From: Reyranella sp. CPCC 100927
Lineage (GTDB): Bacteria; Pseudomonadota; Alphaproteobacteria; Reyranellales; Reyranellaceae
Reading direction: 5' to 3'
Length of the DNA stretch: 39,725 nucleotides
Assembly: GCF_007859315.1 (NCBI RefSeq)
Contig: NZ_VOHA01000040.1
Location: 1 to 39,725, forward strand
Shown here: piece after piece, positions 1,092 through 37,043 of the stretch
How positions within the stretch are numbered: position 1 is the stretch's first letter
How the letters are laid out: every line of letters begins with the position of its first letter
The notes under the pieces: generated by a model
The model's input: the letters and a program-made list of their open reading frames with translations, nothing else
Database searches by the model: none
What the model was told of the DNA's origin: nothing
Translations under genes and position numbers: made by a program

Positions 1092-2360
1092 TCAGTGCCG
1101 GATGTTCGGCGCGGTGAGCTTGAGGCCCTGGTTGAGGCTCTTCAGGAAAATTTCGAGATCGCCGTATTCCTTGGCATCGGGCGGCAACTCGTTGGCGCGC
1201 ACCTGCACGGCGCACCACTGGAAGCGTTTACGCACGTCCCACGTCTCGCCGCTGCCGCGGCTGGTGCGCCAGGTCGGGAAGTGGTCGAGCTGGCCGCGGA
1301 ACTCGCCCAGCCACTGGCCGCGCAGCCACTTCAAGGCGCCCTTCTCCGGCGTGTGGCAGTCGACGCAGGCAAAGTTGAGCTGGCCGATCTTCGTTTCGGT
1401 CAGGCTCTTGCCACGCTCCACCGCCGCCTTGGCCTCGGGACTGGAGACGTCGACACGGATCTCACGGCCGTTGGACAGCGAATGCAGGAAGATGGTCAGG
1501 TCGGTGTTCTCGGTGCTCTGCATGCGCCAGTCGACCTCCAGGGTCGCCTTGGCGTGACGGTAGATGAACTCCTCGACGCCCAGCACCTTGTTGAGCCGCG
1601 GCTCCCATTTCGGCATCGATGTCGCCCAGCCCGCGAATGTCGCCTTGGGATCGGCGTGGCACGACACGCAGCTCTTGCCGTTGGCCATCGTCTTGGCGGC
1701 CAGCGCCTGGCCGACCTCGATGCGCTCGGCGGCCGGGTTGATGAACGGATCGAGCGCATCGCGGTCCTCGACCGGTGTCGGCCGCTTGCCCGGATCGTCG
1801 AGCGCGCTCTTGAACGCCGCCGGCGTCTTCAACGTCTTGAGGAACGCCACGATGTCGCGGATTTCATCCTGAGTGTAGAAGCCGTGCGCGCCCCAGGGCG
1901 GCATCGATGTCTCCGGATTATAGACGCGCGCGTCGAAGACGTAGTTGAACAGCCATTGATCGGTGCGGCCGGCCGTGCCGATCTCCGACAGGTCCGGCGC
2001 GAAATTGCCCGGCGCCTCCTGGGTCGACGTGCCCATCACATGGCAGGCGAGGCAGCCGCCGCCGCGGGTGCGGGAAAACGCCAGCTCCTGGCCCTTCCTG
2101 GCATCGCCCGTGATGGCGCCGGTGAGCTCGATTTCCTTGCCCGGCGGCGGCGTCAGGTCGCGCCTGGCCAGCGTATTGTAGGTATCCCAGCGCGCCGTGT
2201 TCCAGCCGCCATAACGCTTCCACGGCTCGGGCGCCGCCGAGCCTTCGACATGCAAGGGCGCCGGTGCCTTGGGCTGCGCCAGGGCACTGCCGGCCGCTGC
2301 TGCTGTCATCACCAGGACAACCATGCCCGTGGCAAGCCGTCCACTACGCTTGATCCCCAT
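1092..2360 (-). CDS. soxXA: Fused SoxXA cytochrome c (SoxX domain + dihaem SoxA domain)
   Basis: A 422-residue exported protein. The signal peptide is residues 1-29 (ends GSALAQ). Residues about 45-180 form a SoxX-like monohaem domain with CLACH at 103-107 and a likely Met ligand in SMPPWG (M153). Residues about 200-422 form a SoxA domain with CVSCH (231-235), CVDCH (332-336) and the isolated cysteine in RFQWCAVQVRAN (C383), at the position of the SoxA active-site cysteine that becomes a persulfide. SoxAX joins thiosulfate to SoxY oxidatively and passes electrons to a c-type cytochrome. Normally SoxX and SoxA are separate chains; here no stop or frameshift separates them. The start MGIKRSG at 2360 has GGGGAAG upstream; 55 more upstream codons are open but lack signal-peptide character. 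Confidence 0.9.
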   Translation of the reverse strand: MGIKRSGRLATGMVVLVMTAAAAGSALAQPKAPAPLHVEGSAAPEPWKRYGGWNTARWDTYNTLARRDLTPPPGKEIELTGAITGDARKGQELAFSRTRGGGCLACHVMGTSTQEAPGNFAPDLSEIGTAGRTDQWLFNYVFDARVYNPETSMPPWGAHGFYTQDEIRDIVAFLKTLKTPAAFKSALDDPGKRPTPVEDRDALDPFINPAAERIEVGQALAAKTMANGKSCVSCHADPKATFAGWATSMPKWEPRLNKVLGVEEFIYRHAKATLEVDWRMQSTENTDLTIFLHSLSNGREIRVDVSSPEAKAAVERGKSLTETKIGQLNFACVDCHTPEKGALKWLRGQWLGEFRGQLDHFPTWRTSRGSGETWDVRKRFQWCAVQVRANELPPDAKEYGDLEIFLKSLNQGLKLTAPNIRH

Positions 2361-2406
2361 CGTCTTCGCTTCCCCTCGTTCCGGGTCCGTCACCCGGCCG
2401 CTTTTT

Positions 2407-2796
2407 TTAGCACTTGGCGGCAAGTGCTGTCCGGTTGCGTTCGATCTCCTTGCCCAGCAGGCCCCAGAAATGATCCTCGCCCGGATAGCCGATGATGCGG
2501 CCGATCTCCCGGCCGCAAGCGACAATCACGAAGGTCGGCGTCACCTCCACCGGCCGCGCCAGCTTCACGCCGCCGTCGGTTTCACGGTCGGCATCGACAC
2601 GGCGCAGCGTCAGCACCCGGGCTTCCTTGGTCTTGTCGTAGACCTTGCCGATGTCGCGATCCCAGGCGGCGCACCACGGGCAGCTCTTGGAGTGGAACAT
2701 CACCAGATCGGCAGCACGGGCGATCGCCGGGCTGGTCGCCAGGACGGCGGCCGCCAGAAGCGTGCCACGCACTGCTTGACCGACCCGACCGGTCAT
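2407..2796 (-). CDS. soxS: Periplasmic thioredoxin-like SoxS
   Basis: A 129-residue protein with a signal peptide (1-28, ends AIARA) and a thioredoxin-like domain. The redox motif CPWC is at 39-42, a cis-proline segment is in VEVTPTFVIV, and a lone Cys ends the chain. The pattern CPWCAAWDRDIGKVY...LRRVD matches SoxS of sox clusters. Family members keep the SoxY C-terminal cysteine in the active thiol form. It is the first gene of the minus-strand operon, 46 nt upstream of soxXA, and is divergent from the repressor at 2875. SoxW is the alternative label; the small size and motif context favour SoxS. Confidence 0.82.
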   Translation of the reverse strand: MTGRVGQAVRGTLLAAAVLATSPAIARAADLVMFHSKSCPWCAAWDRDIGKVYDKTKEARVLTLRRVDADRETDGGVKLARPVEVTPTFVIVACGREIGRIIGYPGEDHFWGLLGKEIERNRTALAAKC

Positions 2797-4958: not shown

Positions 4959-6350
4959 TCATGGATAGCAGTACGAATCGGATGAGCAGTCGCCGCCTTG
5001 CAGGCGAACCTGGTGCGGGCGGTGCGACTTGGGCCATTGGACAAAGAACCGGGGGTCGAACGCGATGCCGCCGGCCGGGGCGGCGTCGAGCTTCACCATC
5101 CAGCCCTCGATGCCGGCGGGATAGAACTGCGGATCGATGGCACCGTAGAGCGAATTGGTGAAGTAGACGCGCTTGCCGTCACGGCTGATCTCGACCATCT
5201 GCGGGCCGCCGCTGAGCGGACCCGATCCCGACGGATGCGCCGCGCGCGAGACGATGCCGCCGATGCGCACCTTGCCGGTGAGCTTGGGGTTGAACGGATC
5301 GGACACATCGTACTGCTGCAGGTCGCCGGTGCCCCAGCAGGCGACATAGAGATACTTGTCGTCCATCGACAGGTCGATGTCGGTGACCAGCGGCGGACAA
5401 GCCTTGAAGCCTTTCAGCACCGGCGGCAGGTCGTCTTCGCTCGCCGGTTCGGCCGGGATCTCGATCACCTTCTTCACCGCCCACTTGTCGCCGTCGCGGT
5501 ACCAGGTCCAGATCGACGACGACAGGTTCTCCAGGCTGATCACGCAGTTGACGAAGCCGTAGGCCTTGGTGGGATCGTGCGCCGGGCGCAGCTCGAAAAC
5601 GAGTTGGTACTTGTCGCCGAAGTCGATGGTCTGCAGGTGCTTGCGCTTGTGCAGATCCCAGAAATGCAGGCGGCGGCCATACTTCGCGCCCAGCAACACC
5701 TCGGGGATCAGGCCGTTCTCGAACGTATCGGGCGTACCCCATTCGCTGGTGACCAAGGTGTCATGGCCCAGATGCCACCAGGCGTCGTAGGCGAAATGCT
5801 GCGGCCCGCGATCCATCTCCCACTGGCCACGCACGTCGAAGCTCTGGTGGTCCATCAGGAAGATGCCGCCCGGTCCCTTGCCCTCGCGATTGCCCAGGGC
5901 GGCAACGTAGATGCCTTCGGGGCCGCAATGCACGGTGTGCGGCCGCGTGTAGCCGGCGCGCTCGGCCACTTCCGCCGGCTCGATCACCTTCACGATGCTG
6001 GGTTGCCGCGGATCGGGCTTGGTGTCGAGGATATGGATGCGCGAGGAGCGCAGGCCCGGGACCACGAGATAGCGCCGCTCCATATGCGGGTGCGGCGCAT
6101 TGGGGCACAGGCTGGATGAACAGGCGTTCCAACCGAAGTGATGCAGCTCGTCGCCGACATTGGGCATCGCCGTGGTGCCGACGATCTTCGCATAGCTGCT
6201 GGAGGCCGGATCGACGTCCACGACAGCAATCGCGTCGGGCACTTTGCGCTCGGGATCGAAGGCGGCGACATAGGCCAGCGTTTCCGGCGCCGCCTTCATC
6301 GCCATGCGCGGCGAGGGATAGAAACTGGGATCGGGTGTCCAGGTCGCCAT
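4959..6350 (-). CDS. mtoX: Methanethiol oxidase / selenium-binding protein (SBP56 family)
   Basis: A 463-residue protein matching the SBP56/MtoX family over its whole length. Features are HHFGWNACSSSLCP (conserved Cys cluster near residue 73), HPHMERRYLVVPGLRSSRIH, the metal-site-like histidines in TRPHTVHCGPEG and RGPQHFAYDAWWH, and SHRPHQVRLQGGDCSSD at the C-terminus. The family oxidises methanethiol with O2 to formaldehyde, H2S and H2O2. It has no evident signal peptide, unlike the periplasmic Hyphomicrobium enzyme. The start MATWTPD at 6350 has AGGAGA 6 nt upstream. Its place between sox genes and the lipoate/DsrE module suggests it feeds sulfide into sulfur oxidation. The usual SCO1/MauG companions are not seen here. 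Selenium binding would be non-Sec; all codons are standard. Confidence 0.85.
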   Translation of the reverse strand: MATWTPDPSFYPSPRMAMKAAPETLAYVAAFDPERKVPDAIAVVDVDPASSSYAKIVGTTAMPNVGDELHHFGWNACSSSLCPNAPHPHMERRYLVVPGLRSSRIHILDTKPDPRQPSIVKVIEPAEVAERAGYTRPHTVHCGPEGIYVAALGNREGKGPGGIFLMDHQSFDVRGQWEMDRGPQHFAYDAWWHLGHDTLVTSEWGTPDTFENGLIPEVLLGAKYGRRLHFWDLHKRKHLQTIDFGDKYQLVFELRPAHDPTKAYGFVNCVISLENLSSSIWTWYRDGDKWAVKKVIEIPAEPASEDDLPPVLKGFKACPPLVTDIDLSMDDKYLYVACWGTGDLQQYDVSDPFNPKLTGKVRIGGIVSRAAHPSGSGPLSGGPQMVEISRDGKRVYFTNSLYGAIDPQFYPAGIEGWMVKLDAAPAGGIAFDPRFFVQWPKSHRPHQVRLQGGDCSSDSYCYP

Positions 6351-6605
6351 GGCGATCTCCTTTGCCGGAGGACTCACACGACGCTGCGCTGATGCGATGA
6401 GCCTAGAGATCTCGCCGTGGCCGGCAAGGCAATTCGACGCTGTTCGCGACGAGCGGAAAGCGACCGGGTAACCCGACGGGCACTTGATGCGCGCCACTGC
6501 GGACTCGCGCATCGCCATTTGGTCGCACAACCGTCTTGATCGAAACGGAGAAGCATGGTCGACCGCCGCCGTCGTCCTGACAGCCTGTGATCTTATGGGT
6601 CCACG

Positions 6606-6695
6606 CTGTCATCCCGAGCGTAGCGAGGGATCTTTTTCCGGCCGTGAACGGCCCAGAAACTGCCGAAAGATTCCTCGCTACGCTCGGAATGACAG
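6606..6695. repeat. Long dispersed hairpin, copy 2
   Basis: Arm CTGTCATCCCGAGCGTAGCG and following bases (6606-6635) pairs with its near-perfect reverse complement at 6666-6695. The loop carries its own small GGCCGT/ACGGCC stem. It is the same family as 1005-1070 and 34060-34148. The two arms agree at the bases that differ between copies (GCGTAGCG here, GCGAAGCG in copy 1), which indicates compensatory change or duplication as a unit. Confidence 0.85.
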
Positions 6696-6782
6696 CGCGA
6701 AGCGACAAAGCTTATATCCTCTGAGTGCAGCACAGGTGGCGCTGATGATCACCAGCGCCATCAATCTTTGAACGATTCACCG

Positions 6783-6811
6783 CAAGGTCCTTCGCTGCGC
6801 TCAGGACGACG
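6783..6811. repeat. Single degenerate arm of the dispersed hairpin family
   Basis: CAAGGTCCTTCGCTGCGCTC and following bases resemble one arm of the long hairpin repeat but have no partner arm nearby. This looks like a decayed half-copy. Confidence 0.5.
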
Positions 6812-6851
6812 GCGGTGAGTCCCGACACGCTTCTACCAAGCGTAAACTGCT

Positions 6852-7931
6852 CTAGGCCGACCTGAGAATCATCGCGATCTCGGTTGCCGTGAGACCCGGC
6901 AGTTCCAGGCCGGCCAGATTGAGTCCGTTCTGAATCCGCAACGCCAGGTCCGGCGCGGCGCGGCGCAAGCCAACGAGCCTTGCCGCCAGCTTGTCCAACC
7001 CGTCGGACGACAGCGGCAGCAGCTCGCCGGTGATCTCGATCTCCTCGATCACGCCGGCGCGCTCCAGGAGCCGCAGATGGGCAAGCCCGCCGGTACCGCG
7101 ATGGGCGCAATTGACCACCGTCAGCCCGTCCCTCGCCCGCTGGTCGGCGTTGGCCAGTCGCTGACCGGCGGCGTGAAGATGGCGGATCTGGACCATCTGC
7201 GCCTCGCGCCGCGCGACGGCAGCCCGCTCGTCATCGCGCAACGCCGAATCCTGCAGGGTCCATCCCAGCAGGCTGCCGAGATGCGCCAGCAGGGCATCCT
7301 TGACCGCGGTACGATCCGGCGCCTGCCCCGCTTGCGCCAGCTGCTCGCGGATGACGTCGCCGATCCGTCCGCGAATCACATCGGACGGCAGACCTGCCTG
7401 GCGCGCGATGGTATCGGGATCGAAGTCGGTCACCAGGCTGGCGCCGACCATCAACGTGGTGCCGACAAAACCGATCTGCAGACCGCCCACACGATAGCGC
7501 GCCAGTTCGACGCCGCCCCAGATGGCACGCGTGACGGGGATCCCGAACGCCTGCCATGTCCGCAGCAGCGGCTCGACGAAACGGACGTAGAGCGGCCCGA
7601 CCGGCCCGCTCGATTCGGGCCGGGCACGCGGCACCATGATGTGGACCATCATGTTGTTGGGCGCCAACCACAGGGCCGGGCCACCGGTGGCCCGGCGCAG
7701 GACCGGCAGGTCGTTGTGGCGGCAGAAGCGCAGGTCGATCTCGCGCGACACGTCCTGGTGCGCGCCGATGCTGACGAAGGGTGTCTCGGGGTCGGCCAGC
7801 ACGACAACAGGCTCATGCCCCAGCGCCATGGCATCGGCCACGCCGTGGTGGATCGCCTGCGCCTGCAGCGGCGCGAGGCGGCCCGCATCGATCAGCCGCA
7901 CAGCCACGCCGTCCGTCGCTCCATCCGCCAT
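6852..7931 (-). CDS. Lipoate-protein ligase-like protein (sLpl(AB)-like)
   Basis: A 359-residue protein. Residues about 40-235 form an LplA/BPL-type fold with FVSIGAHQD, the lipoyl-AMP loop RRATGGPALW (79-88; usually RRxSGGGxV) and LMVGASLVTDFD. The C-terminal third looks like an LplB-type accessory domain (STLP-like TGELLPLSSDGLDKLAARL). This two-domain plan fits the lipoate ligases that load lipoate-binding proteins of the sHdr sulfur pathway. An oddity: the segment GGLQIGFVG aligns with the ligase motif GxK(I/V)xG, and the catalytic lysine appears to be Gln152. So activity may be altered, or the protein may be a transferase-like relative. I chose the ATG at 7931, with AAGGGG 6 nt upstream, over the one at 7937. 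It is divergent from dsrE with only 44 bp between starts. Confidence 0.75.
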   Translation of the reverse strand: MADGATDGVAVRLIDAGRLAPLQAQAIHHGVADAMALGHEPVVVLADPETPFVSIGAHQDVSREIDLRFCRHNDLPVLRRATGGPALWLAPNNMMVHIMVPRARPESSGPVGPLYVRFVEPLLRTWQAFGIPVTRAIWGGVELARYRVGGLQIGFVGTTLMVGASLVTDFDPDTIARQAGLPSDVIRGRIGDVIREQLAQAGQAPDRTAVKDALLAHLGSLLGWTLQDSALRDDERAAVARREAQMVQIRHLHAAGQRLANADQRARDGLTVVNCAHRGTGGLAHLRLLERAGVIEEIEITGELLPLSSDGLDKLAARLVGLRRAAPDLALRIQNGLNLAGLELPGLTATEIAMILRSA

Positions 7932-7975
7932 GAACATCCCCTTGCCGTTCGCCCGGCCCGGCGCGATGGTGAGGC

Positions 7976-8353
7976 ATGCCCCGGCGGCTCACCATCATTC
8001 TGATCAACAGCGATCCGCGCAACCCCGCGGAGCTGGGCGCGCCGCTATACCAGGCGGCGGTGGCGGCGGCGATGGATTATGAGGTCGAGGTCATCTGCAC
8101 CGGCGCCGCCGGCGAACTGATGCGCCAAGGCCGGGCGGCGGCGATCGAGATCAAGCCCGGGTCGGGCAAGACCGTCTATGACTTCATCCGCGAAGCGCAC
8201 GGGCATGGCGCGCGGTTCCTGGCCTGCTCGACCAATCTCGACCTGCACGGGTTCACCCAGGACGAGCTGATCCCGGAATGTACCGGCTTGGTCGGCGCCG
8301 CCTATATGGTCGAACGCACCATGGACGACGACACGCGGGTACTGACGTACTGA
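7976..8353 (+). CDS. DsrE-family sulfur-relay protein
   Basis: A 125-residue cytoplasmic protein with the DsrE/DsrF-like fold: LTIILINSDPRNP at the N-terminus, a glycine-rich YDFIREAHGHGARFLACST segment and a C-terminal GAAYMVERTM. Cys84 in FLACSTNLDL is at the position of the sulfur-carrying cysteine of DsrE-type transferases; Cys41 and Cys102 are additional. Family members pass persulfide sulfur between TusA, rhodanese and oxidation complexes. The ATG at 7976 is the first possible start because an in-frame stop precedes it by one codon. GGTGAGG sits only 1 nt before it, an unusually close ribosome site. lbpA follows after 13 nt. Confidence 0.82.
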   Translation: MPRRLTIILINSDPRNPAELGAPLYQAAVAAAMDYEVEVICTGAAGELMRQGRAAAIEIKPGSGKTVYDFIREAHGHGARFLACSTNLDLHGFTQDELIPECTGLVGAAYMVERTMDDDTRVLTY

Positions 8354-8366
8354 CGGAGCGATCACC

Positions 8367-8813
8367 ATGGCCATCGTCAAGGGCTGCCTGCTACCCGACG
8401 CACTGCTGTACGACGTCGAGGAGATGCTGTGGTACCAGCCGCTGCCCGACGGCGCCTACCGGATCGGCGGCACCATGGTGGCGGTCGGCATGGCGGGCTC
8501 GATCGCGGCGGCAACGCCCAAGCGCGCCGGCCGCCATGTGCTGGCCGGCCATGCCTGCGCCGTGATCGAGTCGGGCAAGCTGGTGTCAGCGGCCAAAGTC
8601 GCCTTCGCCGGCATGATCGTCGCCAGCAACGAGGACCTGATGGAAAACCCGCGCTGGCTGGAGAAGGACATGTATGGCGCGGGCTGGTTCGTCGAAATCC
8701 AACCCGACGATGCGGCCGCAGCGCGCGCCGTGCTGCTGACCGCCGCCGAGGCCGTGCCCGGCTTCCTGGATTTGATGGCGCGCGAAAAGTTCGACGGCTG
8801 CGGCGCCGGATGA
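8367..8813 (+). CDS. lbpA: Lipoate-binding protein LbpA (GcvH-like)
   Basis: A 148-residue GcvH-fold protein. YRIGGTMVAVGMAGSI and the hammerhead IESGKLVSAAKVAFAG place the lipoylated lysine at residue 71. The family signature differs from glycine-cleavage H proteins (ESVK) and fits the LbpA group that works with sHdr in sulfur oxidation. LMENPRWLEKDMYGAGWFVEI is the usual H-protein C-terminal helix and strand. The extension to FDGCGAG ends with a Cys. No glycine-cleavage P or T gene is nearby, while a DsrE-like protein and a lipoate-ligase-like gene are, which supports a sulfur rather than glycine role. GGAG lies 8 nt upstream of the start. It converges with the next gene, 5 nt between stops. 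Confidence 0.85.
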   Translation: MAIVKGCLLPDALLYDVEEMLWYQPLPDGAYRIGGTMVAVGMAGSIAAATPKRAGRHVLAGHACAVIESGKLVSAAKVAFAGMIVASNEDLMENPRWLEKDMYGAGWFVEIQPDDAAAARAVLLTAAEAVPGFLDLMAREKFDGCGAG

Positions 8814-8818
8814 CGTGC

Positions 8819-9190
8819 TTAAGACGACAGGGGATCGAGCCGCAGGGGCCGCCCCTTGCGATCGAAGAAGACGCCCTCGTTGACGGCGGCATGGTTGGCG
8901 ATGACCCGGTCCTGGACCTGCTTGAGCCGCGCCCGCGCCTCGGTGTCGTTGAGCGGACCGCCGGCAGCCGCGGCGGCCGGAAAGATCGCCACGGCGTTCC
9001 AGGACAGGTCGGAGCGGTCGAGCAGCCGGCGAAACTCGGACCACGTCAACTCGTTGCCAATGACGTTGGCGTAGGATGAACCCAGCGGCCAGATGGTGCG
9101 GGCGTCGGTCTTGACCAGCAGCAGCAAGGCCGTGAAGCCTTTGGTGGCAGCATAGGTTTCGCGCAACCACGCATCGAAGGCCGCCGACAT
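8819..9190 (-). CDS. Unrecognised 123-residue protein
   Basis: I do not recognise this protein. It is soluble-looking, with aromatic-rich segments (TIWPLGSSYANVIGNELTWSEF) and a charged C-terminal half (DTEARARLKQVQDRVIANHAAVNEGVFF). It has no signal peptide or cysteine pair. It follows the next gene (9198-9656) by 7 nt, so they are surely co-transcribed. It converges on lbpA with 5 nt between stops. Coding is supported by length, codon-position GC bias and tight packing with its partner. Whether it acts with the sulfur genes or is the tail of the TPS operon cannot be told. Confidence 0.65.
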   Translation of the reverse strand: MSAAFDAWLRETYAATKGFTALLLLVKTDARTIWPLGSSYANVIGNELTWSEFRRLLDRSDLSWNAVAIFPAAAAAGGPLNDTEARARLKQVQDRVIANHAAVNEGVFFDRKGRPLRLDPLSS

Positions 9191-9197
9191 CGGCGGC

Positions 9198-9656
9198 TCA
9201 GAAGTCCACCACCGACTGGAAGGTCGGTGCGTCGCTTGCCAGCAGCGACAGGAAATCGACGTCGAAGCGGGCCCGGTACCAGGCCTCGAAGGAGGTGAAG
9301 GCCAGGATCGGCGCCTGCAGCGCCGGCGCCGGCGCGTCCGCCGGCGGATGATCGCAGGCCCACATCGCGACCGCGACCGGCATCAGGCGCGCCCGCACCT
9401 CGGCATAGGCGGCGTTGGCCGCCGACCAGTCGGTCCGGGTGCACACATGATCGACGCCGGCTTCCAGCGCGCCGGCCTCCTCGGCCGCACCGGCAACGGC
9501 GGCCGCCATGCCTTTCAGCAGGTTGAGACGACGGTAGGCGGCGACTCGCGCCGCCTCGAGCTGTGCCAGGCGATCGCGCATCTGGAGCCGGAAATCGGCC
9601 TCATTGCGCGCCGCCGCCTGCGCCTGGCGTTCGAGATCTTGAATAAAGGCAGGCAT
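9198..9656 (-). CDS. Unrecognised 152-residue protein with N-terminal coiled coil
   Basis: I do not recognise this protein. Residues 5-65 are a charged helix, probably a coiled coil (DLERQAQAAARNEADFRLQM). The C-terminal half has conserved-looking aromatics (AFTSFEAWYRARFDVDFLSLL). It has no signal peptide. It lies 65 nt downstream of the tpsB stop and 7 nt upstream of the partner at 8819-9190. A TATAGT hexamer on the minus strand (9703-9708) could be a -10 box for the pair, but no good -35 is seen. The two proteins may form a complex (inference from coupling). Confidence 0.62.
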   Translation of the reverse strand: MPAFIQDLERQAQAAARNEADFRLQMRDRLAQLEAARVAAYRRLNLLKGMAAAVAGAAEEAGALEAGVDHVCTRTDWSAANAAYAEVRARLMPVAVAMWACDHPPADAPAPALQAPILAFTSFEAWYRARFDVDFLSLLASDAPTFQSVVDF

Positions 9657-9721
9657 GGGTCACGCGCGAGGGTCTTCATGGTTGGACGAACTCACCATGG
9701 ACACTATACAGCAGCCCGCGC

Positions 9722-11452
9722 TCAGAACCGCAATGTTCCGGCGATGTAGACGCGCCATTTATCGCGGTGTGACGCACCGCGGTCGGTATATTGCCGCGCG
9801 ACCTCGACCTGGAATTCAACGTCGCGTCCGACCGGTTCGATGCCAGCCAGGTTGGTCCGCAGGCCGACACCCAGCGATGTCGCACCGACGCTCGAACGCT
9901 CGAGCGCCGTCGGCTTGTCGACGTACACCTTGCCGCGCGCCGCGAAGAGGTACGGTACCACCAGGCCGCGCAGCGGAGTCAGGTTGAAAGCGTCGGCATA
10001 CTGCAGTTCCAGCCGCGCCAGCCAACCACTGTCGCCGGCGAAGGTCGCGACATCGTATCCACTCAGCCGGCGCGGCCCGCCCAGGGTGAACTGCTCGGCG
10101 TTGATCAGCGAGCCACCGAAGGCGTACTGGCCGTAGAATGAGGCATCCAGCGCGAACGAGGCCGGCAGACGCTGCACCACGCGGGCATTGATCTCCATCT
10201 TGGAGAAGTCGTCATCGGCGAAGGCCCGCGAGATGGGTTTGTCGAGCGTCGCATCGCGACGGCCGCGGCTGCCGAAGATCGGCAGACCCTGCGAGAAGTC
10301 GCCGCCCAGCGATACCGTGGTGTCTGTATCGAAGCTGCGCGTCCAGGTGGCGCCGATGCGCAGCGGGCGGATGCGGTCCTCGTACAGCGTGGCGCCGAAT
10401 TCCGGTGCCTTCTGGGTTTCGTTGATGACATCGAAAGTCAGCCGCGGTGTCAGGTTCTCGGTGCGCGACCGGATCAACGGATAGATGAAGCGAACCGAAT
10501 AGCGGGCATAGTCGCTCTCGGTAGCGAGCGATCCGGCCGGCAGCCGCGGCCGGGTCGTCGACCAGGTACCCTCGACATTCAGCACCAGGCCGTCATCGCC
10601 TAGCGGGATCAGCGTGCCCACCGCGCCCAGACGGCGGGCACTGCCGCCGGCGATCCAACCCTTGCCCGGCGGTCCGGCGACGTTGGCGTAGAACTGCTCG
10701 CCGAAACCGAACACGGAATTGATCGCGGCGCTGGTCGAGATCACGGTCCGGCCGAACGGCTTGGAATAGCCGTTGTCGACGCTGAGTTCGGCCGTGACCG
10801 GGCGATGCTCGGCCGTGACCACCAACTTGACTCCACCCTCCCTGCCGCCCGGCGTGATCGTCGATCGCAATGCCGTGCCGGGCGTATCGCCGGCCAGCAG
10901 CAGCTTGCGCTCCAGCACACCAAGCTTCAGACGCCGCTCCCCGACCAGGCCGGCCAGCACTCGACTGATGCGATCGCGCACCGCACCCGGCAGCTGCGCG
11001 ACGTCGACCTGTTCAATGAAACCTTCGACAATCTGCAGGCGCAGTGTCTGCCCGTCGCGCACCTGCTGCGGCGGGATGACGACGCGGGTCAGGAAATGGC
11101 CCTGCGAGGCGTAGTAACGCTCGATCGCCGCAGCGACCTCATAAAGCCGCGAGACCGCCACCCGCTTGCCAGTGACACCCGCGACCGCCGCTGCCGTATC
11201 GGCATCGAGCGGAAGATACCCGCCATCGACCTGAATCTGGCCAACGGTGACCTCGACCCGGTCGGCGCCCGGTGGCGCCGCCGCCGGAGACGCCTCGGGA
11301 ATGGTGATGGTACCCGGTGTCGGTGCCTGCACCGGCGGTCCTGTACGCGGGGCCAACTGGCCCGGTGACGGCACCGATTGTGCGACGGCCGCGCCGCCGC
11401 ACGCCAGAACCAGCAGCGACATGCTGCTGGCCAACCACTTGTTCATCCCCAT
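9722..11452 (-). CDS. TpsB outer-membrane transporter (FhaC/ShlB/HecB family)
   Basis: A 576-residue protein. The signal peptide ends at AVAQ (about 25) and is followed by a Pro-rich linker (29-63), two POTRA-like domains (about 66-215, including GFIEQVDVAQLPG) and a 16-stranded-barrel region from about 225 to the terminal Phe of AGTLRF, as expected for Omp85/TpsB proteins. GGPRRLSGYD is the counterpart of the conserved (V)RGY loop tip of FhaC. It would secrete the TpsA encoded upstream (12332-19024) across the outer membrane by recognising its N-terminal TPS domain. The ATG at 11446 is an alternative start; no strong ribosome site distinguishes them. Confidence 0.92.
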   Translation of the reverse strand: MGMNKWLASSMSLLVLACGGAAVAQSVPSPGQLAPRTGPPVQAPTPGTITIPEASPAAAPPGADRVEVTVGQIQVDGGYLPLDADTAAAVAGVTGKRVAVSRLYEVAAAIERYYASQGHFLTRVVIPPQQVRDGQTLRLQIVEGFIEQVDVAQLPGAVRDRISRVLAGLVGERRLKLGVLERKLLLAGDTPGTALRSTITPGGREGGVKLVVTAEHRPVTAELSVDNGYSKPFGRTVISTSAAINSVFGFGEQFYANVAGPPGKGWIAGGSARRLGAVGTLIPLGDDGLVLNVEGTWSTTRPRLPAGSLATESDYARYSVRFIYPLIRSRTENLTPRLTFDVINETQKAPEFGATLYEDRIRPLRIGATWTRSFDTDTTVSLGGDFSQGLPIFGSRGRRDATLDKPISRAFADDDFSKMEINARVVQRLPASFALDASFYGQYAFGGSLINAEQFTLGGPRRLSGYDVATFAGDSGWLARLELQYADAFNLTPLRGLVVPYLFAARGKVYVDKPTALERSSVGATSLGVGLRTNLAGIEPVGRDVEFQVEVARQYTDRGASHRDKWRVYIAGTLRF

Positions 11453-11543
11453 TGCCCCAATTTTTAAGATCTACAGCAATTTTCTCCGTTGCTTCGGCTC
11501 CCCCCGGAGCTTGCGGCTTTCGCTGAAAAATTCGATCAATTGC

Positions 11544-12290
11544 CTAGAAACGCCCCCGCTCGAGCTTGAAGATATCGGGAGTGGTCCGGTTGGCGATGTA
11601 GCTCACCCGTAGACTGGCCTGTCCGCCGGGTTGCGGCGCCGCTTCAATACGGCCCTCGGCCTTGCGTTCGACAGCCACACCATCGGCCACGACCTGGACG
11701 GCGCCTGTCTTCTCGTCTTCCGCCGCGAACAGCAGCAGGGTGCTGGGACCGATGGGAATACCGAGATTGACCCGTCCGTCGCGCCAGCCAAACTCGTTGA
11801 AGTAGTTCACCAGCTGAACGCCGGCGACGATGTAAGGCCCGGTATCGACCTTGTCCTTGTCGTTCTTGGCCTCGCGCGACCACACCACGTTGACCTGGAT
11901 CAATTTCTTGGACTGATAGCCGAGAATGTAGATCGCGGTTGCCGGACCGGGACCGGGATCCAGCGACGGCACCGACACCATCAGCGCCGCCGTGCGTTCG
12001 ATGGCGTTCGAGGTCTGGCGGATGTCATCGGGCTTAACCCCGAAATCCTTCTGGATCGCGGCCCGGACCTCCGCCTCGGTCATGCCGAAATTGGCCGACC
12101 GGAAGCCCTTCACTTCGTAGGCAGGCTTGGTCGGCTTGGCCGGCGCCTGAGGTGGCGCTGCCGCGCTGGGGGAGGACGATGGCGCCGGCGTGGTGGGCGC
12201 CGGCGCCGTCGGCGCTTGCCCCCACGACGGTCCAGCAACCATTGCCAAGGCTGTACCAGCCAACAACACAACAACCGATTTTGCGATCAT
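11544..12290 (-). CDS. Exported protein of unknown function between tpsA and tpsB
   Basis: A 248-residue protein with a signal peptide (1-25, ends PSWGQ), a Pro/Ala/Thr/Ser-rich linker (26-57) and a globular domain opening with GFRSANFGMTEAEVRAAIQKDFG. That motif is typical of small periplasmic domains preceding helical segments. The rest is beta-rich and ends LERGRF; the final Phe resembles an outer-membrane beta-signal, but the chain is not barrel-like. It lies 41 nt after tpsA and 91 nt before tpsB in the same operon, suggesting a role in TpsA biogenesis or periplasmic handling. I cannot name a family. Confidence 0.75.
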   Translation of the reverse strand: MIAKSVVVLLAGTALAMVAGPSWGQAPTAPAPTTPAPSSSPSAAAPPQAPAKPTKPAYEVKGFRSANFGMTEAEVRAAIQKDFGVKPDDIRQTSNAIERTAALMVSVPSLDPGPGPATAIYILGYQSKKLIQVNVVWSREAKNDKDKVDTGPYIVAGVQLVNYFNEFGWRDGRVNLGIPIGPSTLLLFAAEDEKTGAVQVVADGVAVERKAEGRIEAAPQPGGQASLRVSYIANRTTPDIFKLERGRF

Positions 12291-12331
12291 CCGACGAGCC
12301 CGTTCTGTTGTTCGTTACCTCATTGCGAGGC

Positions 12332-15300
12332 TCAGAATGTACCGCAAATCAGTGTGGCTTGCTTGCCGATCTTACAGGTGACCGGCGCCGACGACGGCTC
12401 GCCGTAGAGACCGTCCAGTGGGCCATTGCCGCCCGCCCCCGGCAGCGTCGCGCCGACAACGGTGATGCCCGGCAGCGGACCGGTCGGCAGCGGCTGGATG
12501 GTCAGCACGCCCTCGACGACGCTCAGTGCATAGTTCGATCCGAAGCTGAACGTACCCTGGGTGATCGGGTAGGCGCCGGGCGCATCGCTGGATGATGACC
12601 GGGCCAATGCTCCCGTCGGGGTGTCGCCGAACACGACGTTGCCCGCCGTCACACGCCACGTGAAAGTCGGGTCGGGCGACAACGCGATCTTGGTGTGGCT
12701 GTCGGCCGTTACCGTCAGCGGGCGCGGCGTGATGGTCAAGGCTGCCGGTGTGTAGGCCAGCGTGTAGTTGCCGTTCGCCGCGAGGCTGCCCTGGCCGATC
12801 GCATAGGGGCCGCCCAGCACAGATTCGCCCGGGCTCCGGCTGAGGCCGCCGCCGAGCACGGTGGCGGCCGAATCGGCGAACCTAAAGCCGTTCACCGCGA
12901 ACGTCAGCACGGGATCGGCATCGCCATAGACCTTGGTCCTGGCATCGGCGACGACGTTCAGCACGGCGGGCGTGATCGTCAAGTTGGCGCCGACATAGGT
13001 GATGACGTAGTTGGCGTTGTTCAGCGAACCCTGAACAATGCCATAGATACCGGCATTCTCGCCCGGCTGGCGGCTCAGGCCACCCGACAGCGTGTCGGCA
13101 AAAGCGAGATTGCCACTGGTGACACTGTAGGTCAGCGCCGAATCGGCGTCGCCATAGGTCTTGGTCTTGGCATCGGCCGTTACGGTGATCGGACGCTGTG
13201 CGATCGTGAGGTCGCTACCAACGTAGGAGATCGCGTAATTACTGTTGGCCAGCGTTCCCTGCAGGATCGTATAGGCGCCGACGTTCTCGCCCGTATTGCG
13301 CGTCAGACCACCGGAGAGTGTATCGCTGCCGACCAGGTTTCCCGACGTGACCTGATAGGTCAGCGCCGGATCGGCGTCGCCATAGGTCTTGGTCTTGCCA
13401 TCGGCCGTCACCGTGATCGGCCGTGTGCCGATGGTGAGATTGGCATCGACATAGGTGATGGCGTAGTTGCTGTTGCCCAGTGATCCCTGGAGGATCGCAT
13501 AGGCGCCAACATTCTCGCCTGCATTGCGCATCAGACCACCGGAGAGTGTATCGCTGCCGACCAGGTTTCCCGACGTGACCTGGTAGGTCAGCACCGGATC
13601 GGCATCGCCATAGGTCTTGGTCTTGCCATCGGCCGTCACCGTGATCGGACGCGCGCTAATGGTCAGGTTGGCGCCGACGTAGGTGATGGCGTAGTTGCTG
13701 TTGGCCAATGATCCTTGAAGGATGGCATAGGCGCCGACATTCTCGCCCGCATTGCGCGTGAGACCGCCGGAGAGTGTATCGCCGCCCACCAGGTTGCCCG
13801 ACGTGACCTGGTAGGTCAGCGCCGGATCGGCGTCGCCGTAGATCTTGGTCCTGGCGTCGGCCGTCACCGTGATCGGGCGCGCGCCGATGGTCAGGTTGGC
13901 GCCGACATAGGTGATGGCGTAGTTGCTGTTGCCCAGCGATCCCTGGAGGATCGCATAGGCCCCAGCGTTCTCGCCAGCGTTGCGGGTCAGTGCACCGGAC
14001 AGCGTGTCACCACCGACCAGGTTCCCGGTCGTGATCTGGTAGGTCAGCGCCGGATCGGCATCGCCATAGGTCTTGGTCTTGCTATCGGCCGTCACCGTGA
14101 TCGGACGCGCGCCGATGGCGAGGCTGGCGCCGACATAGGTGATGGCGTAGTTGCTGTTGCCCAGTGATCCCTGCAGGATCGCATAGGCTCCGACGGTCTC
14201 CCCGGCGTTGCGGGTCAGCGCACCGGACAGCGTGTCACCACCAACGAGGGTCCCGGATGTGACCTGATAGGTCAGCGCCGGATCGGCGTCGCCGTAGATC
14301 TTGCTCCTGGCGTCGGCCGTCACCGTGATCGGCCGCTGCCCGATCGTGAGATTGGCGCCGACATACGTGACGGCGTAGTTGCTGCTGGCGGTCAGCGACC
14401 CTTGCAGGATCGCGTAGGCACCGACGGTCTCCCCGGCGTTGCGGGCCAGAGCGCCGGACAGCGTGTCGGCGAAGGCCAGGCTGCCGGACGTGATCCGGTA
14501 CGTCAGCGCCGGATCGGCATCGCCGTAGGTCTTGGTCCTGGCGTCGGCGGTGATGGTGATCGGGCGCGTGGTGATCGTGAAGTTGGCACCAACGTAGGTG
14601 ATCGCGTAGTTCGGGTTACCCAGCGACCCCTGCACGATCGCATAGGTTCCGACGTTCTCCCCGGCGTTACGTGTCAGAGCACCGGACAGTGTGTCGCCGC
14701 CGATCAGGCTCCCCGATGTGACCAGGTAGGTCAGCGTCGGATCGACATTGCCGTAGATCTTGGTTCCGCCATCAGCGGTCACCGTGATCGGGCGCGCGGT
14801 GATGATGATGTTGGCGCCGACGTAGGTGATGGCGTAGTTGGGGTTGTTGGTGTTGGTCAGCGTGTTCTGGTTGATGGCGTAGGTGCCGACAGCGTTGCCG
14901 GACACGCGCGACAGAGCCCCGTTGAGCGTGTCACCGCCGACCAGGCTCCCGGACGTGATCCGGTACGTCAGCGCCGGATCGGCATCACCGTAGACCTTGC
15001 TTTTGGCGTCGGCCGTCACCGTGATCGGCCGTGCACCGATGGTGAGATTGGCGCCGACATAGGTGACGGCGTAGTTGCTGCTGGCGGCCAGCGACCCCTG
15101 AAGAATGGCGTAGGCACCGACGTTCTCACCGGCGTTACGGGTCAGCGCACCGGACAGCGTGTCGCTGAAGGCCAGGCCACCGGATGTGATCCGATACGTC
15201 AGCGCCGGGTCGGCATCGCCGTAAGTCTTGGTCTTGGCATCGGCGGTGATGGTGATCGGGCGGGCGGTGATGGCGAAGTTGGCGCCAACATAGGTGATGG

Positions 15301-18300
15301 CGTAGTTGCTGTTGCCCAACGATCCCTGCAGGATCGCATAGGTCCCGACATTCTCCCCGGCGGTGCGGGTCAGCGCACCGGAGAGTGTATCGCCGCCGAC
15401 CAGGCTCCCCGATGTGACCTGATAGGTCCGTGTCGGATCGACATTGCCGTAGATCTTGGTCCCGGCATCGGCCGTCACCGTAATCGGGCGCGCGCCGATG
15501 GTGAGATTGGCGCCGACATAGGTGATGGCATAGTTGCTGTTGGCCAATGATCCTTGAAGGATGGCGTAGGCGCCGACGTTCTCGCCTGGATTGCGCGCCA
15601 GGCCACCGGAGAGCGTGTCGCCGCCGACCAGGTTGCCCGACGTGACTTGGTAGGTGAGCGCCGGATCGGCATTTCCGTAGGTCTTGCTCTTAGCATCCGC
15701 CGTCACCGTGATCGGACGGGCGCCGATGGTGAGGTTGGCGCCGACATAGGTGAGCGTGTAATTGCTGCTGGCGGCCAGTGACCCTTGGAGGATCGCGTAG
15801 GTGCCGACGTTCTGGCCTAAATTGCGCGCCAGGCTGCCGGAGAGCGTGTCGGCAAACGCGAGACCGCTGCCGCCAACACTGTACGTCAGCGCCGGATCGG
15901 CATCGCCATATACCTTGGTCTTGGCCTGGGCCGTCACCGTGATCGGACGGCGATTGATGGTCAGGTTGGCGCCGGCAAAGGTGATGGCGTAGTTGCTGTT
16001 GGCGAGCGACCCCTGGTTGATGGCGTAGGGGCCGACGTTCTCACCGGGTGCGCGCCCCAGACTGCCGCCGAGCGCATCGGCGCCGACAAGATTGCCCGCG
16101 GTGATCTGGTAGGTAAGCGTCGGATCGACATTACCGTAGATCTTGCTGTTGGCGTCGGCCGTCACCGTGATCGGGCGGGCACCGATGGTGAGGTTGGCGC
16201 CGACATAGGTGATGTTGTAGTTGCTGTTGGTCAGGTTGTTCTGGTTGATCGCATACGTGCCGACATTGGTGCCGCTGACGCGCGACAGGGACCCGCTGAG
16301 CGCGTCGCCGTTCACCAGGTTGCCGGACGTGATCTGGTAGGTCAGCGCCGGATCGGCATTGCCGTAGGTCTTGGTCTTGGCATCCGCCGTCACCGTGATC
16401 GGGCGCCGCGCGATGGTGAGCGTGCCGCTGACGGTGCTCGTGTTCAGGAAGTAGCCACTCTTGCCGCCGGCAAAGGCGGTGCTGGCCGTGTCGCTGATAG
16501 AGAAACTCCGGCTAGTGCCGGCGCTCGTGGTCGCGGTCGGCGCCCCGCTGGGGTAGTCGACCTGGACCGACCCGGACACCAGCAGCGTCGCCAGGGTGTC
16601 ACCAGCGCGCAGGCTGCCCGCCGTCAGAACGGGCGCATCGAAGCTGGGATTGGGATCGCCGTAGGGGCGCGACTGACTCCCGCCCGGCCCGAAGCTCAGC
16701 CGTGCCGCGTCGGCTTTATCCATGACGCCGATGCGGGTGACCGTGCTGCCCTCGACAAAGCGGATCGTCTCGCCGCCAAGGACGCCCGTGATGGTCTTGC
16801 CGCTTGCTTCGCCCAACCAGCTGATGCTATCGCCGGTGCCGCTGGTGAGCACGCTGTTGGCGCCCACGATGATGTTGCGGTCCGGCAGGGCGATATTGTC
16901 GCCGGACGTCAGATTGCCGTTCAGTTCGACGCTGCCACCCGCCGAAGCCATCGCCACGGCAATGTTCTGGACGCTACCGCTGTTCACGGTGGTGATCGTG
17001 CCGAGGCGAATGTCGCCACCGGTCGAGCCGTTGCCCATCGTGATCGTGACAGCACCCGTGCCGGCAAGGATCGTTGCGCCGCGCATGTCGATCGTCGCGG
17101 CGCCGGCATCGCGTTGACCGGTGATCCTGCTGCTGTTGCTGGTGTTGGCGATCAGCGTGATACTGCCGTTGTCGGTCGTGATCACCGAGCCGGCGGCGAT
17201 GATGATGCTGCGGCCGGCCTCCAACGTGATGTTGCCGCCGTTGTTGCTGCCGGGGCCACTGGCGCTCCAGCCGTTGTTGACGAAGATGTCGTTGTTGGCC
17301 TGCAGCGTGACGCTGGTGCCCTTGTCGAGGATGGCCGTGAGGCTGCTCGGCGCGATGAAGGCGACGCCGGAGCTGTTCTCGCCGAACGCGTCGTTCCCGC
17401 TGACGCTCGCGCTGCCGCCGTTGTCGATGACGATGTTCTTGGGATCGAGCAGAAGCTGACCGCCGGCGCCGATCTCGAGCTTGGCGAGATCGACGAAGGC
17501 CAGGTTCTCCTTGCCCGAGATCTCGACCGAACCGGCCGACGACGCACCGGTCGCGCGCACCACGCCGTTCATCCAGGTCGTGCCGTTGGCCCACACGATG
17601 GCGGTGCCGCCGGTATTGCCGCCCGACACGTCGATGGTCACGCTGTTGGCGACCCGTGTCTGCGTCGCGCTGTGCAGCGCCGGTGCGTCCGCCCAGCGCG
17701 TCACGTACGTCGCCCGGAGCGCCGGCGACAGGTCGTGCGGTGCGCCGCCCTGGAAGGCGCCGCCGATACGGATCAACCCGCCGACATGACCGCCGGTCGC
17801 CAGCAGGCTCGCCTGCGTCACCCGCACATCGTCCGCCGTCAGGTCGATTCGCCCGCCTGTCGTGACGCCGCTGGCCAGGAATGTGCCCGATGCATCCAGC
17901 CGCGTGCCGCCGTTGACCGTGATCGTGCCGCCCACGGTGCCACCCGACACGTCGAGCGTACCCGTCGTCGTCACCGCGTTGCCGCTGATGCCGATGTCGC
18001 CGCCACGCTGCGTGCCGCCGCTGGCCGCGATGCGGCCGGATGTCTTCACCGAACCGCCGGGCCCGCCATCGATGTCCACCTTGCCGCGCTGCACCGTGAC
18101 CGGCGTCTTGGTCGGCGGCGCCACGGTATCGGCGCCAAACACCACGCCGCCATCGGTGCGCATCACCGTGCGCGCTTCGACGGTGCCCGAGACCGTGACG
18201 GCCGCCCGCGCCACGTCGGCCGTCGTCGCCGCGCGCATCGCCACGGGCCCGCCATTGGCCTGGATGCGCCCGGTGTGCTTGATCAGCGCCTCGCTCCGGT

Positions 18301-19024: not shown

Positions 19025-19051
19025 TGTGGCGGTGGCCCCCAATTGACCCAA

Positions 19052-19865: not shown

Positions 19866-20444
19866 TCAGCGGGCTTCCGTCCAACTCTCGGAAAACGCCA
19901 GGGCGCAGGTGCTGAAGGGGCGTCCCTCGCGCTCCCGCGCCCACGGGCTGCCTTTGGCCTGGACACCGTTGCGCGTCAGACGGGCGGCCAGCGACGGGAT
20001 GAGAACGGTGCACACGCCGTACGGCCGGCCCGGCGTGGCGTTGGGCTGCGTGTGGATCAGCAGGGGATCGCCGATATCGTGCCAGGTCAGCGCGATTTCC
20101 TCGCCCGGCGCCGACACGTGCTCGGTCCAGAAATAGTGCGGATCGCCCGACTTGTCGAAGGTGGCATCCGTGACCGCGATCGTCGTGTCGAGCAGTTCGG
20201 CGTTGAGCATGCCCTGCACGGTCTTCTGCAGCCAGCGGGTCATGGCGATGTTGTCGGAGTAGATCCGCCAGCGATTCTCGGTCAGCTCGCTCTTGAGATA
20301 GAGGACGTGTCCCGGTCCGGCCGGGCTGAACAGGATGCGCCAGTAGCTGGCGTCGGTGGTGTTGGGATCACCGTCCTTGGCGCTCAGCCGGATGAACGGG
20401 TTCTCGCCGGTCAGGATCACGCGGTTGGGGTCGGCAGTGGACAT
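19866..20444 (-). CDS. Conserved-looking hypothetical protein, 192 residues
   Basis: Starts MSTADPNRVILTGENPFIRL at 20444 with GGAG 9 nt upstream; the upstream open frame lacks coding character. The protein is soluble-looking, with beta-rich segments (YWRILFSPAGPGHVLYLKSE), a central NRWRIYSDNIAMTRWLQ stretch and HYFWTEHVSAPGEEIALTWHDIGDP. The last resembles a small lipocalin-like or cupin-like sheet protein. I cannot assign a family. It is divergent from the Vgb-like gene (20724) with 279 bp between them, which hold both promoters. Two cysteines occur near the C-terminus. Confidence 0.65.
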   Translation of the reverse strand: MSTADPNRVILTGENPFIRLSAKDGDPNTTDASYWRILFSPAGPGHVLYLKSELTENRWRIYSDNIAMTRWLQKTVQGMLNAELLDTTIAVTDATFDKSGDPHYFWTEHVSAPGEEIALTWHDIGDPLLIHTQPNATPGRPYGVCTVLIPSLAARLTRNGVQAKGSPWAREREGRPFSTCALAFSESWTEAR

Positions 20445-20723
20445 GGCGACAGGCTCCGGTTGATCAGAGGAATGCGGCCCGGCCGGGCGGCAACGGGCGA
20501 CAACAGTGGTGGGCACATGTGACAGGGAAAAGTCGACGACGCAGCGCCAGGCGGCCCCTGACTGCCGAATCGGCGCCCGCGCGAATAGTGCCGCCCCGGT
20601 GCAACCGATGGAAAGAACTTTCATGGCATAGCCGGTGTGACATGACCTGCATGTGATCCGGCAAGCGCATCAAATCGTCCCATACTGCGCTTCCCGAGCC
20701 CTTTTTCCCGCAGGGAGGCTCTG

Positions 20724-29543: not shown

Positions 29544-29639
29544 TGGCGGAAGAGAGTGGGAGTCGAACCCACGAAGAACCGTCCAACGGCCCTTACTGGA
29601 TTTGAAGTCCAGCCGCCCCACCGGAAGCGTTTCCCTTCC
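29544..29639 (-). tRNA. selC: tRNA-Sec (anticodon UCA)
   Basis: On the minus strand, a 96-nt sequence begins GGAAGGGAAACGCTTCCGG. It has an 8-bp acceptor stem (GGAAGGGA with TCTCTTCC, one G-U), an anticodon arm CTGGACTTCAAATCCAG with UCA in the loop, a long variable arm, and a T arm GTGGGTTCGACTCCCAC, then G73 and encoded CCA. The length, long extra arm and D arm match bacterial selenocysteine tRNA. It decodes UGA at SECIS-bearing codons. SelA and SelB are encoded at 37040 and 34217 in this window. Confidence 0.96.
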
Positions 29640-29706
29640 CCATTGGCGCACGGACTGTACGATGGGCCGGTGCTTTTGACCAAGCGCTTGTGCGCAGCAG
29701 CAGGGC

Positions 29707-36263: not shown

Positions 36264-37043
36264 TCATGCCTGGTCTCCCGCCGCGATCAGGCGTTCGGCT
36301 TCGGCGGTCTGCTCTATCGAAATGATCGGCTTCACGCGCGCCAGGAAGCCGGCAGCAATCTCGCTGCCCTGGCGCTGGGCGCGCGTGAGCCAGCGCCAGG
36401 CCAGCATCTGGTCGGGTGCTACGCCTAGCCCGAGGTGATAGGCGGCGCCCAGCATCGCCTGCGCCTCGGCATCGCCCAGGCGCGCGGCCTTCTCGAACCA
36501 CTGTGCCGCCTGCACCGCATCGCGCTCGACACTCCAGGCGTTGTGATGGATCTGACCGAGCCGGCACATGGCCGAGGCAATGCCTTGCGCCGCTGACGCT
36601 TCAGCCCAACGTCGCGCCAACAGCCAGTCCCGCTCCATGCCGACGCCTTCGCACGCCATCCAGCTCAGCATGTTCTGCGCTTCGGCGTCACCCGCCTCGG
36701 CGGCGCGGGCATACCAATGCGCCGCCTGCGTAAGGTCGCCATCGGTACCACGGCCCTCGTAATACATCAGCGCCAGATTGCGCTGCGCCAGCACGTCGCC
36801 GGCATCGGCGGCGTGTCGGAACCAGCGCACGGCCTCGTCGTCGTCGCGCGGCACGCCGTTGCCGGTGGCGAACAGGCCGCCGAGATTGCTCTGGGCGCGC
36901 GCTACGCCTTTGTGCGCCAGGTCGTGCCACAGGGCGAAGGCGGCTTCGACGTCGCCAGCCTCGAAAGCCAGGCGCGCACGGTCCAGCACCGCGTCGACCG
37001 GCTCGACGGCAGGCCGCCGCATCAGGCGCGCGAGGAGACTCAT
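36264..37043 (-). CDS. Sel1-like (SLR/TPR) repeat protein inside the sel cluster
   Basis: A 259-residue protein with about six Sel1-like repeats of about 36 residues ([20 protein letters not shown] and [19 protein letters not shown]), from about residue 45 to 225. It has no signal peptide. Sel1 repeats bind partner proteins. The gene is between selA and selB and its ATG overlaps the selA stop (ATGA), so it is translationally coupled to selA. Its GGGGAG ribosome site is the 3' arm of a repeat hairpin. A role in selenoprotein or formate dehydrogenase maturation is only inferred. The name Sel1 is unrelated to selenium. Confidence 0.85.

Follow-up and report, generated by a model that had tools for sequence, protein, structure and literature searches.

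Lipoate-binding proteins of the LbpA type are described, in the cited parts of two studies, as components of the heterodisulfide reductase-like (sHdr) pathway of sulfur oxidation (PMC6067878, PMC10332631), in which LbpA is thought to accept electrons as dihydrolipoamide (PMC6067878). The relevant section of the former study also gives a terminal cysteine pair as a mark of LbpA that is absent from GcvH, some archaeal LbpAs excepted, and LipS2 occurs in most, not all, sHdr genomes. The cofactor of formate dehydrogenase (FDH), according to the passages cited here, requires a sulfido ligand, provided through FdhD with IscS in Escherichia coli and in vitro by sulfide with a reductant (PMC12140954); for E. 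coli Fdh-N and Fdh-O, the section concerned assigns the catalytic subunits to the periplasm (PMC3160892). In Alphaproteobacteria, two small open reading frames (ORF1 and ORF2) are named beside selB in the part of Mukai 2021 drawn on here (PMC8124441), which also mentions a proposed horizontal transfer of fdoGHI-selABCD. This analysis concerns a five-gene block at positions 6852-9656 of contig NZ_VOHA01000040.1 of Reyranella sp. CPCC 100927, the whole 39,725-nucleotide stretch being referred to as the window. The block encodes an LbpA, a DsrE-like protein, a lipoate-ligase-like protein (lpl) and two small conserved proteins. We give about an even chance to its being an accessory or maturation module for selenocysteine (Sec)-containing FDH (Sec-FDH), derived from the carrier genes of an sHdr system that has lost its hdr enzyme genes.

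Linkage of the block to Sec-FDH

The window corresponds to contig C35 of a 9.08 Mb genome (99.3% complete), and its lpl, dsrE and lbpA reading frames (Table 1) are each intact. The start codons of the divergent lpl and dsrE genes are 38 bp apart, and 13 bp separate dsrE from lbpA; the small gene at 8819-9190 begins 5 bp after lbpA on the opposite strand, followed another 7 bp on by that at 9198-9656. A preliminary description of this DNA had proposed a three-gene lipoate-ligase/DsrE/LbpA module without visible Hdr genes. The trio is real, and the absence extends to the whole genome for sHdrB and is joined by that of LipS2, but the conserved block comprises five genes in the window's genus, where it is kept together in G075 and G074, and in another genus of this family, g3, in whose four genomes with a ligase match (G003-G006) the five genes likewise stand together. 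Of the named relatives in which the block was found, Vineibacter terrae CC-CFT640 is the closest. The order and strands of lpl-dsrE-lbpA are identical in all 11 FDH-linked genomes that have the trio together, an arrangement that is therefore more than chance.

Accompanied or not by the other two genes of the trio, lbpA lies near Sec-FDH in 12 genomes from five groups (genera g1, g3, g62 and g164 and the metagenome-assembled genome (MAG) G456). All 12 genomes, whose LbpAs form the FDH clade described below, contain fdoG, and in 11 of them it shares a contig with lbpA at a distance of 1.4-22.6 kb. Genes of the fetched loci were called with a simple composition script and tblastn, and a neighbour reported as missing is accordingly one that these thresholds did not reveal in the stretch. 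The g3 loci are arranged as fdoG-fdoH-fdoI-fdhE-9198-8819-(lbpA-dsrE reversed)-lpl, small genes being named by their start positions in the window; the MAG YF1.bin20 (G456) has fdoGHI-fdhE-9198-(lbpA-dsrE reversed)-lpl; and three g164 genomes of family f58 (G252, G347, G423) have (lbpA-dsrE reversed)-lpl-fdoG-fdoH and then, within the limits of the stretches, fdoI, fdhE, selA and selB. The lbpA of G131 (family f58, genus g62) follows fdoGHI-fdhE-selA-selB-9198-8819. The trio thus lies on the upstream side of fdoG in one group, whereas in the others it comes downstream, after fdhE or selB. The Vineibacter blocks are farther out, with fdoG on the same contig at 22.6 kb (G075) and 16.6 kb (G074). 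The window's own genome holds a Sec-FDH set of fdoG with an in-frame TGA, selA, selB, fdhE and tRNA-Sec, with fdoG on a contig other than that of the block. Its fdoGHI (one in-frame TGA) lies terminally on contig C39, where 144 bp separate the end of fdoI from the contig edge; fdhE is likewise 70 bp short of the edge of C35, and such distances would fit if C39 and C35 were neighbours. The link is hard to see from the window because selB, selA and fdhE are 25-31 kb off and fdoGHI is on the other contig.

Co-occurrence was examined in a class sample of 385 Alphaproteobacteria genomes drawn from a larger group, with scoring of the best candidates per genome (about 10 in the searches for the 8819-9190 family and for LbpA, about 4 in that for sHdrB) and with an LbpA profile (A1) built from FDH-linked proteins. 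LbpA was found in 15 of the 385 genomes and sHdrB in nine, all of them among those 15. A search for fdoG, made in 27 chosen genomes, recovered it from six of the six sample genomes with LbpA and no sHdrB versus none of the nine with both (Fisher p of 2e-4 counted by genome and of 0.005 by genus). An lbpA of the FDH clade is present in five of these six, the sixth being G304. One in-frame TGA is present in each of the 16 full-length fdoG matches from the 27 genomes, a 17th being cut by a contig end.

Joint absence is seen in G073, a member of the window's genus (99% complete), in which no match was obtained for lbpA (only GcvH), dsrE, the 8819-9190 family or fdoG. This genome retains fdhE, fdoI, selA, selB, a degenerate lpl and a C-terminal piece of fdoH, and the leftover piece suggests loss rather than a missing contig. 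The 9198-9656 family was not seen in the two G073 loci opened (L021, L041), to which the search for it was confined.

Identity and origin of LbpA

The lbpA product matches the Pfam GCV_H family at 70.7 bits (cut-off 22.2) and falls below both NCBIfam GcvH cut-offs, at 50.5 versus 115.85 on the gcvH model and 74.5 versus 117 on the other. Its lipoyl-lysine position is K71, a column occupied by Lys in 29 of 29 LbpA rows. A Cys near each end (C7 and C145 in the window) is likewise found in all 29 but in none of 13 GcvH rows. A tree of the 42 rows splits off GcvH at 100/100 and leaves the window's LbpA on the LbpA side. A separate gcvH, scoring 149.9 and 172 on the NCBIfam GcvH models, lies on contig C24 of the same genome next to a gene read as gcvT-like. 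A reading of the gene as the H protein of a second glycine cleavage system was rejected on the sub-cut-off scores, the tree placement and this separate gcvH. Of the two outcomes that the preliminary description had named as refuting its idea, neither was observed: LbpA falls outside GcvH, and no sHdrB match was obtained elsewhere in the genome.

All 12 FDH-linked LbpAs group in a single clade (100/99) within the sHdr LbpAs of Alphaproteobacteria, and sequence comparison thus shows an sHdr ancestry; L122 and L103 in this tree both stand for one gene of G429. The window's LbpA is 44-86% identical to the other members of the clade, and K71 and the Cys near each end are present in 12 of 12. The LbpA of G304 stands next to the clade with weaker support (84/70). 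G304 is a second setting of LbpA without sHdrB: at L094, positions 5806-13205, lbpA and dsrE lie near tusA, soxYZ and a gene read as SoxT/YeeE-like, with no sHdrB match. The DsrE tree agrees with the LbpA tree (88/93), the ligase tree less firmly (78/65); in both of these the FDH label is also carried by the G131 genes (L093, on another contig than its FDH), and in the ligase tree by G073 (L021), which has no fdoG.

Gene order is consistent with this descent. At L123, the sHdr cluster of G353 is arranged as (lbpA ... hdr genes ... dsrE reversed)-lpl, and removal of its hdr genes yields the order of the FDH-linked trio, lbpA and dsrE reversed and lpl forward, strands included. A single loss of the hdr core from an L123-like sHdr cluster would be the simplest reading. 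Both kinds of locus are found in G456, which has an sHdr cluster with its own lbpA, its dsrE interrupted by a run of N, in addition to the FDH-linked trio.

DsrE and the ligase-like protein

The dsrE product matches the Pfam families DrsE_2 (38.0 bits, cut-off 25) and DsrE (27.8, cut-off 22.7), and homologues of it head the sHdr clusters of L121-L124. The Cys84 column is conserved in 20 of 20 aligned rows, and all 12 FDH-linked DsrEs have both Cys84 and Cys102 in intact frames.

The lpl product matches LplA-B_cat (Pfam, 60.1 bits, cut-off 27); the only other LplA/LipB-type match in the window's genome is on contig C2. In all four proteins from the window's genus the ligase motifs are altered, GGG to GGP, ND to GG and the motif Lys to Arg, while GGG and the motif Lys are retained in 15 of 15 other ligases compared, those of other FDH-linked loci included. 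The motif Lys is the key active-site residue in E. coli LplA, and GGG and ND..K are motifs of the active site. The motif changes suggest that the protein of the window's genus is probably not a standard active ligase. With its neighbouring ligase probably inactive, LbpA in this genus would depend on LipB/LipA for its modification or stay unmodified. The ligase reading frame of L118 is shorter (260 aa). In G073 a degenerate ligase-like gene is retained (L021, 9150-10280; L041) where lbpA and dsrE were not found, so that its product may serve a separate function.

Search for the sHdr enzyme

The lbpA of the window is not encoded with hdr-like genes: the genome gave no sHdrB match, and the window itself has no gene of hdr type. 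The sHdrB profile, built from two Bacillota proteins, matched none of nine genomes (G000, G073-G075, G003-G006 and G131); it matched G456 and G457 and nine Alphaproteobacteria (429-452 bits) and missed G458. LipS2 was likewise matched in none of the same nine, and in G456, G457 and G458. The last of these, a Gallionellaceae MAG with LipS2 and LbpA and no sHdrB match, is either incomplete or has a divergent sHdrB. An sHdr system elsewhere in the window's genome was rejected for sHdrB and LipS2 only, sHdrA, sHdrC, LipS1 and TusA not having been searched genome-wide. Six CCG-domain stretches in this genome belong to four proteins, one of which exceeds the GlcF cut-off; the other three are under all cut-offs, their best models being LdhH or GlpC, and one of the CCG proteins (L002) has a weak match to CoB-CoM heterodisulfide reductase B (30.5 bits, cut-off 345).

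The two small genes

Of the 385 sampled Alphaproteobacteria, seven have a match to the 8819-9190 family, six besides the window's genome. Four of these six other loci (L035, L037, L038, L039) place it inside a Sec-FDH/sel cluster without a nearby LbpA, although G304, to which L037 belongs, carries lbpA on a different contig; in L034 it occurs with lbpA in such a cluster, and it adjoins fdhD in L035 and L036. Matches on plasmids were found in 46 records, and the three opened (Sinorhizobium meliloti pSymA, Terrarubrum and Roseomonas mucosa) have fdoGHI-fdhE-selA-selB in the same stretch, the homologue of Roseomonas mucosa following directly after selB. The 9198-9656 family stands beside it in several Sec-FDH clusters. 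Both small genes are found even in Sec-FDH clusters that have no LbpA close by. By position, without comparison of the sequences, the 8819-9190 family is probably ORF2 of Mukai 2021, and the 9198-9656 family perhaps ORF1, likewise by position only.

Other features of the window

Table 1. Features of the window, with the basis of each assignment.
Feature	Position	Strand	Basis
lpl, ligase-like, altered motifs	6852-7937	-	361 aa; Pfam LplA-B_cat; ligase comparison
dsrE, sHdr-heading type of sulfur (or selenium) carrier	7976-8353	+	125 aa; Cys41, Cys84, Cys102; Pfam
lbpA, GcvH-family lipoate-binding protein, LbpA type	8367-8813	+	148 aa; K71, C7, C145
Small conserved protein, Sec-FDH-cluster family; probably ORF2 of Mukai 2021 by position	8819-9190	-	
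Small conserved protein adjoining 8819-9190; perhaps ORF1 of Mukai 2021	9198-9656	-	several Sec-FDH clusters
tRNA-Sec (selC)	29544-29641	-	about 4.6 kb from selB, not nested in selB
selB, Sec-specific elongation factor	34217-36157	-	translation; homologues near fdoGHI/fdhE/selA in L131, L132, L034
selA, Sec synthase	37040-38599	-	matches annotated selA in L136, L137
fdhE, formate dehydrogenase accessory protein	38696-39655	-	matches annotated fdhE in L136, L137

Between the module and the sel genes lie a two-partner-secretion-transporter-like reading frame (9722-11452, minus strand) and a 2239-aa protein with many repeated units (12332-19051, minus strand), both labelled by reading; neither was seen at the corresponding place in G075. 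Two uncharacterised genes (11544-12290 and 19866-20624, minus strand) remain near the block within the genus at about 70-88% identity, both in L019 and L021 and the latter also in L020. The tRNA-Sec gene lies within the 5' part of a reading frame labelled by reading as MsrB-like. At the other end of the window, an apparent SoxX-SoxA fusion (1092-2525, minus strand) scores 79.9 on NCBIfam SoxX (cut-off 61) and 142.1 on SoxA (cut-off 110).

Possible mechanism and alternative explanations

If the block serves Sec-FDH, we infer that its role is in maturation and that its cargo is sulfide or selenide. By inspection, with no predictor run, LbpA and DsrE have no visible export signal, and the start of FdoG looks like that of an exported protein; LbpA and DsrE could therefore act on FDH only before its export, which points to maturation. 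In the scheme that we consider, DsrE would hold a persulfide, which the lipoyl-LbpA dithiol (K71, perhaps with C7 and C145) would reduce. LbpA would then hand over sulfide and reducing equivalents for the Mo-sulfido ligand of the FDH cofactor on the unexported enzyme, a supply that might operate beside or instead of the usual IscS-FdhD route; the main alternative cargo would be selenide for SelD. We know of no report of LbpA or DsrE in FDH sulfuration of the FdhD/IscS type, and a literature search found no paper on LbpA with FDH. That LbpA and DsrE form a dedicated chalcogen-delivery relay, the lipoyl arm freeing sulfide or selenide from a DsrE-bound persulfide or perselenide to build Sec-FDH, is put forward tentatively, as a possibility that we ourselves find doubtful.

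Several observations weigh against a function for Sec-FDH. Joint absence with fdoG rests on one case, G073. Seven opened Sec-FDH loci (L035, L037-L039, L135-L137) have no adjacent trio, which is therefore not generally needed for Sec-FDH. The dsrE and lpl of G131 lie together on another contig than its lbpA and FDH, and in G304 Sec-FDH is on another contig than lbpA and dsrE. LbpA-bearing rows fall on one side of a branch in the fdoG tree, with low support (32), and the linkage may represent one cassette inherited or transferred jointly rather than several independent associations. The surroundings in turn suggest other functions. The trio could be a detached sHdr carrier still at work in sulfur oxidation, with DsrE and LbpA passing sulfane sulfur from Sox or the SBP56 protein to a cytoplasmic oxidase and FDH an incidental neighbour, as might be expected from the sHdr ancestry of LbpA and DsrE, from soxXAYZ and SBP56 less than 8 kb from the trio in the window, from the position of lbpA and dsrE beside soxYZ/tusA in G304, and from a gene read as SQR/FCSD-flavoprotein-like that adjoins the ligase or is one gene from it in G074 and G073. 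We regard this as unlikely, given that no sHdrB or LipS2 was matched, that G073 keeps the flavoprotein-like gene yet lacks lbpA, dsrE and fdoG, and that sox genes occur in the fetched stretches of only two of 13 LbpA loci (the window and L094 of G304) versus fdoG in 12 of 12 clade genomes. The preliminary description's idea of a detached sHdr satellite is thus right as ancestry, in the descent of LbpA, the type of DsrE and the lack of sHdrB and LipS2, but the conserved link is to Sec-FDH and not to Sox; its alternative, a carrier route from Sox to another acceptor, is not supported by the same counts. A role in catabolism of methanethiol and other C1-sulfur compounds, with SBP56 splitting methanethiol to formaldehyde and sulfide, FDH taking the formate and LbpA and DsrE the sulfur, draws on the direct adjacency of SBP56 and the trio in the window and G075, a point that also tells against a function for Sec-FDH. 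This seems most improbable to us, in that the fetched stretches of the other FDH-linked loci yielded no SBP56 and the window's protein (4959-6530, minus strand), which scores 647.7 bits as SBP56, reaches 98.9 on the NCBI methanethiol oxidase model against a cut-off of 650. Its substrate is uncertain, and the earlier label of methanethiol oxidase is corrected to that of an SBP56 protein.

Delivery of selenium, by contrast, would keep the block with Sec-FDH in another capacity: DsrE and LbpA would bind selenium and reduce it to selenide for SelD, allowing Sec-FDH to be made at safe selenide levels. The in-frame TGA of all 16 full-length fdoG matches, the small genes that the block shares with sel clusters and the description of selenium supply to selenophosphate synthetase as unsettled (PMC8538045, in the part cited) accord with this proposal. 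It is distinctly unlikely in our view: G073 retains selA and selB without LbpA or DsrE, the seven opened loci have Sec-FDH without the trio, and Sec in fdoG is found also in genomes without LbpA and is thus not discriminating. Finally, the trio might be a hitch-hiking or decaying remnant in a horizontally moved Sec-FDH cluster, with no function of its own, which would account for the degenerate ligase motifs of one genus, the 260-aa frame of L118 and the joint grouping in the fdoG tree. Retention of K71 and the terminal Cys in 12 of 12 LbpAs and of Cys84 and Cys102 in 12 of 12 DsrEs, in intact frames despite LbpA identities as low as 44%, renders this very improbable.

Implications and relation to known systems

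A maturation role for the block, if correct, would extend the functions of protein-bound lipoate from carbon metabolism and sulfur oxidation to the maturation of an enzyme. Six of the 15 LbpA genomes lack sHdrB and all six have Sec-FDH, so that LbpA alone is unsafe as a marker of sulfur oxidation. The block additionally offers a concrete candidate for a sulfur or selenium route to a selenoenzyme, selenium delivery being a step called unsettled in the section cited above (PMC8538045).

Among described systems, the GcvH of glycine cleavage shares the family and the lipoyl-lysine with the window's LbpA, which differs in scoring below the GcvH cut-offs and in having a gcvH elsewhere in its genome. 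The lipoate:protein ligase sLpl(AB) resembles the lpl product in its LplA catalytic-domain match and its place beside lbpA and dsrE, but within the window's genus it departs from such ligases in the GGG, ND and Lys motifs. As far as the cited parts describe the sHdr-LbpA system of Hyphomicrobium denitrificans (PMC6067878, PMC10332631), the window block has in common with it an LbpA with the Lys and two Cys, a ligase-like gene and a DsrE of the kind that heads hdr clusters; it differs in lacking sHdrB and LipS2, in its linkage to Sec-FDH and in the separate clade of its LbpA. With the alphaproteobacterial fdoGHI-selABC clusters of Mukai 2021 (PMC8124441) it shares fdoGHI, the sel genes and the small reading frames by selB, while LbpA, DsrE and the ligase are not among the genes described in the section drawn on here. 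Sulfuration of FDH by FdhD and IscS, as outlined in the cited portion of PMC12140954, would have the same destination as that proposed for the LbpA-DsrE cargo, the sulfido ligand, reached through different protein families.

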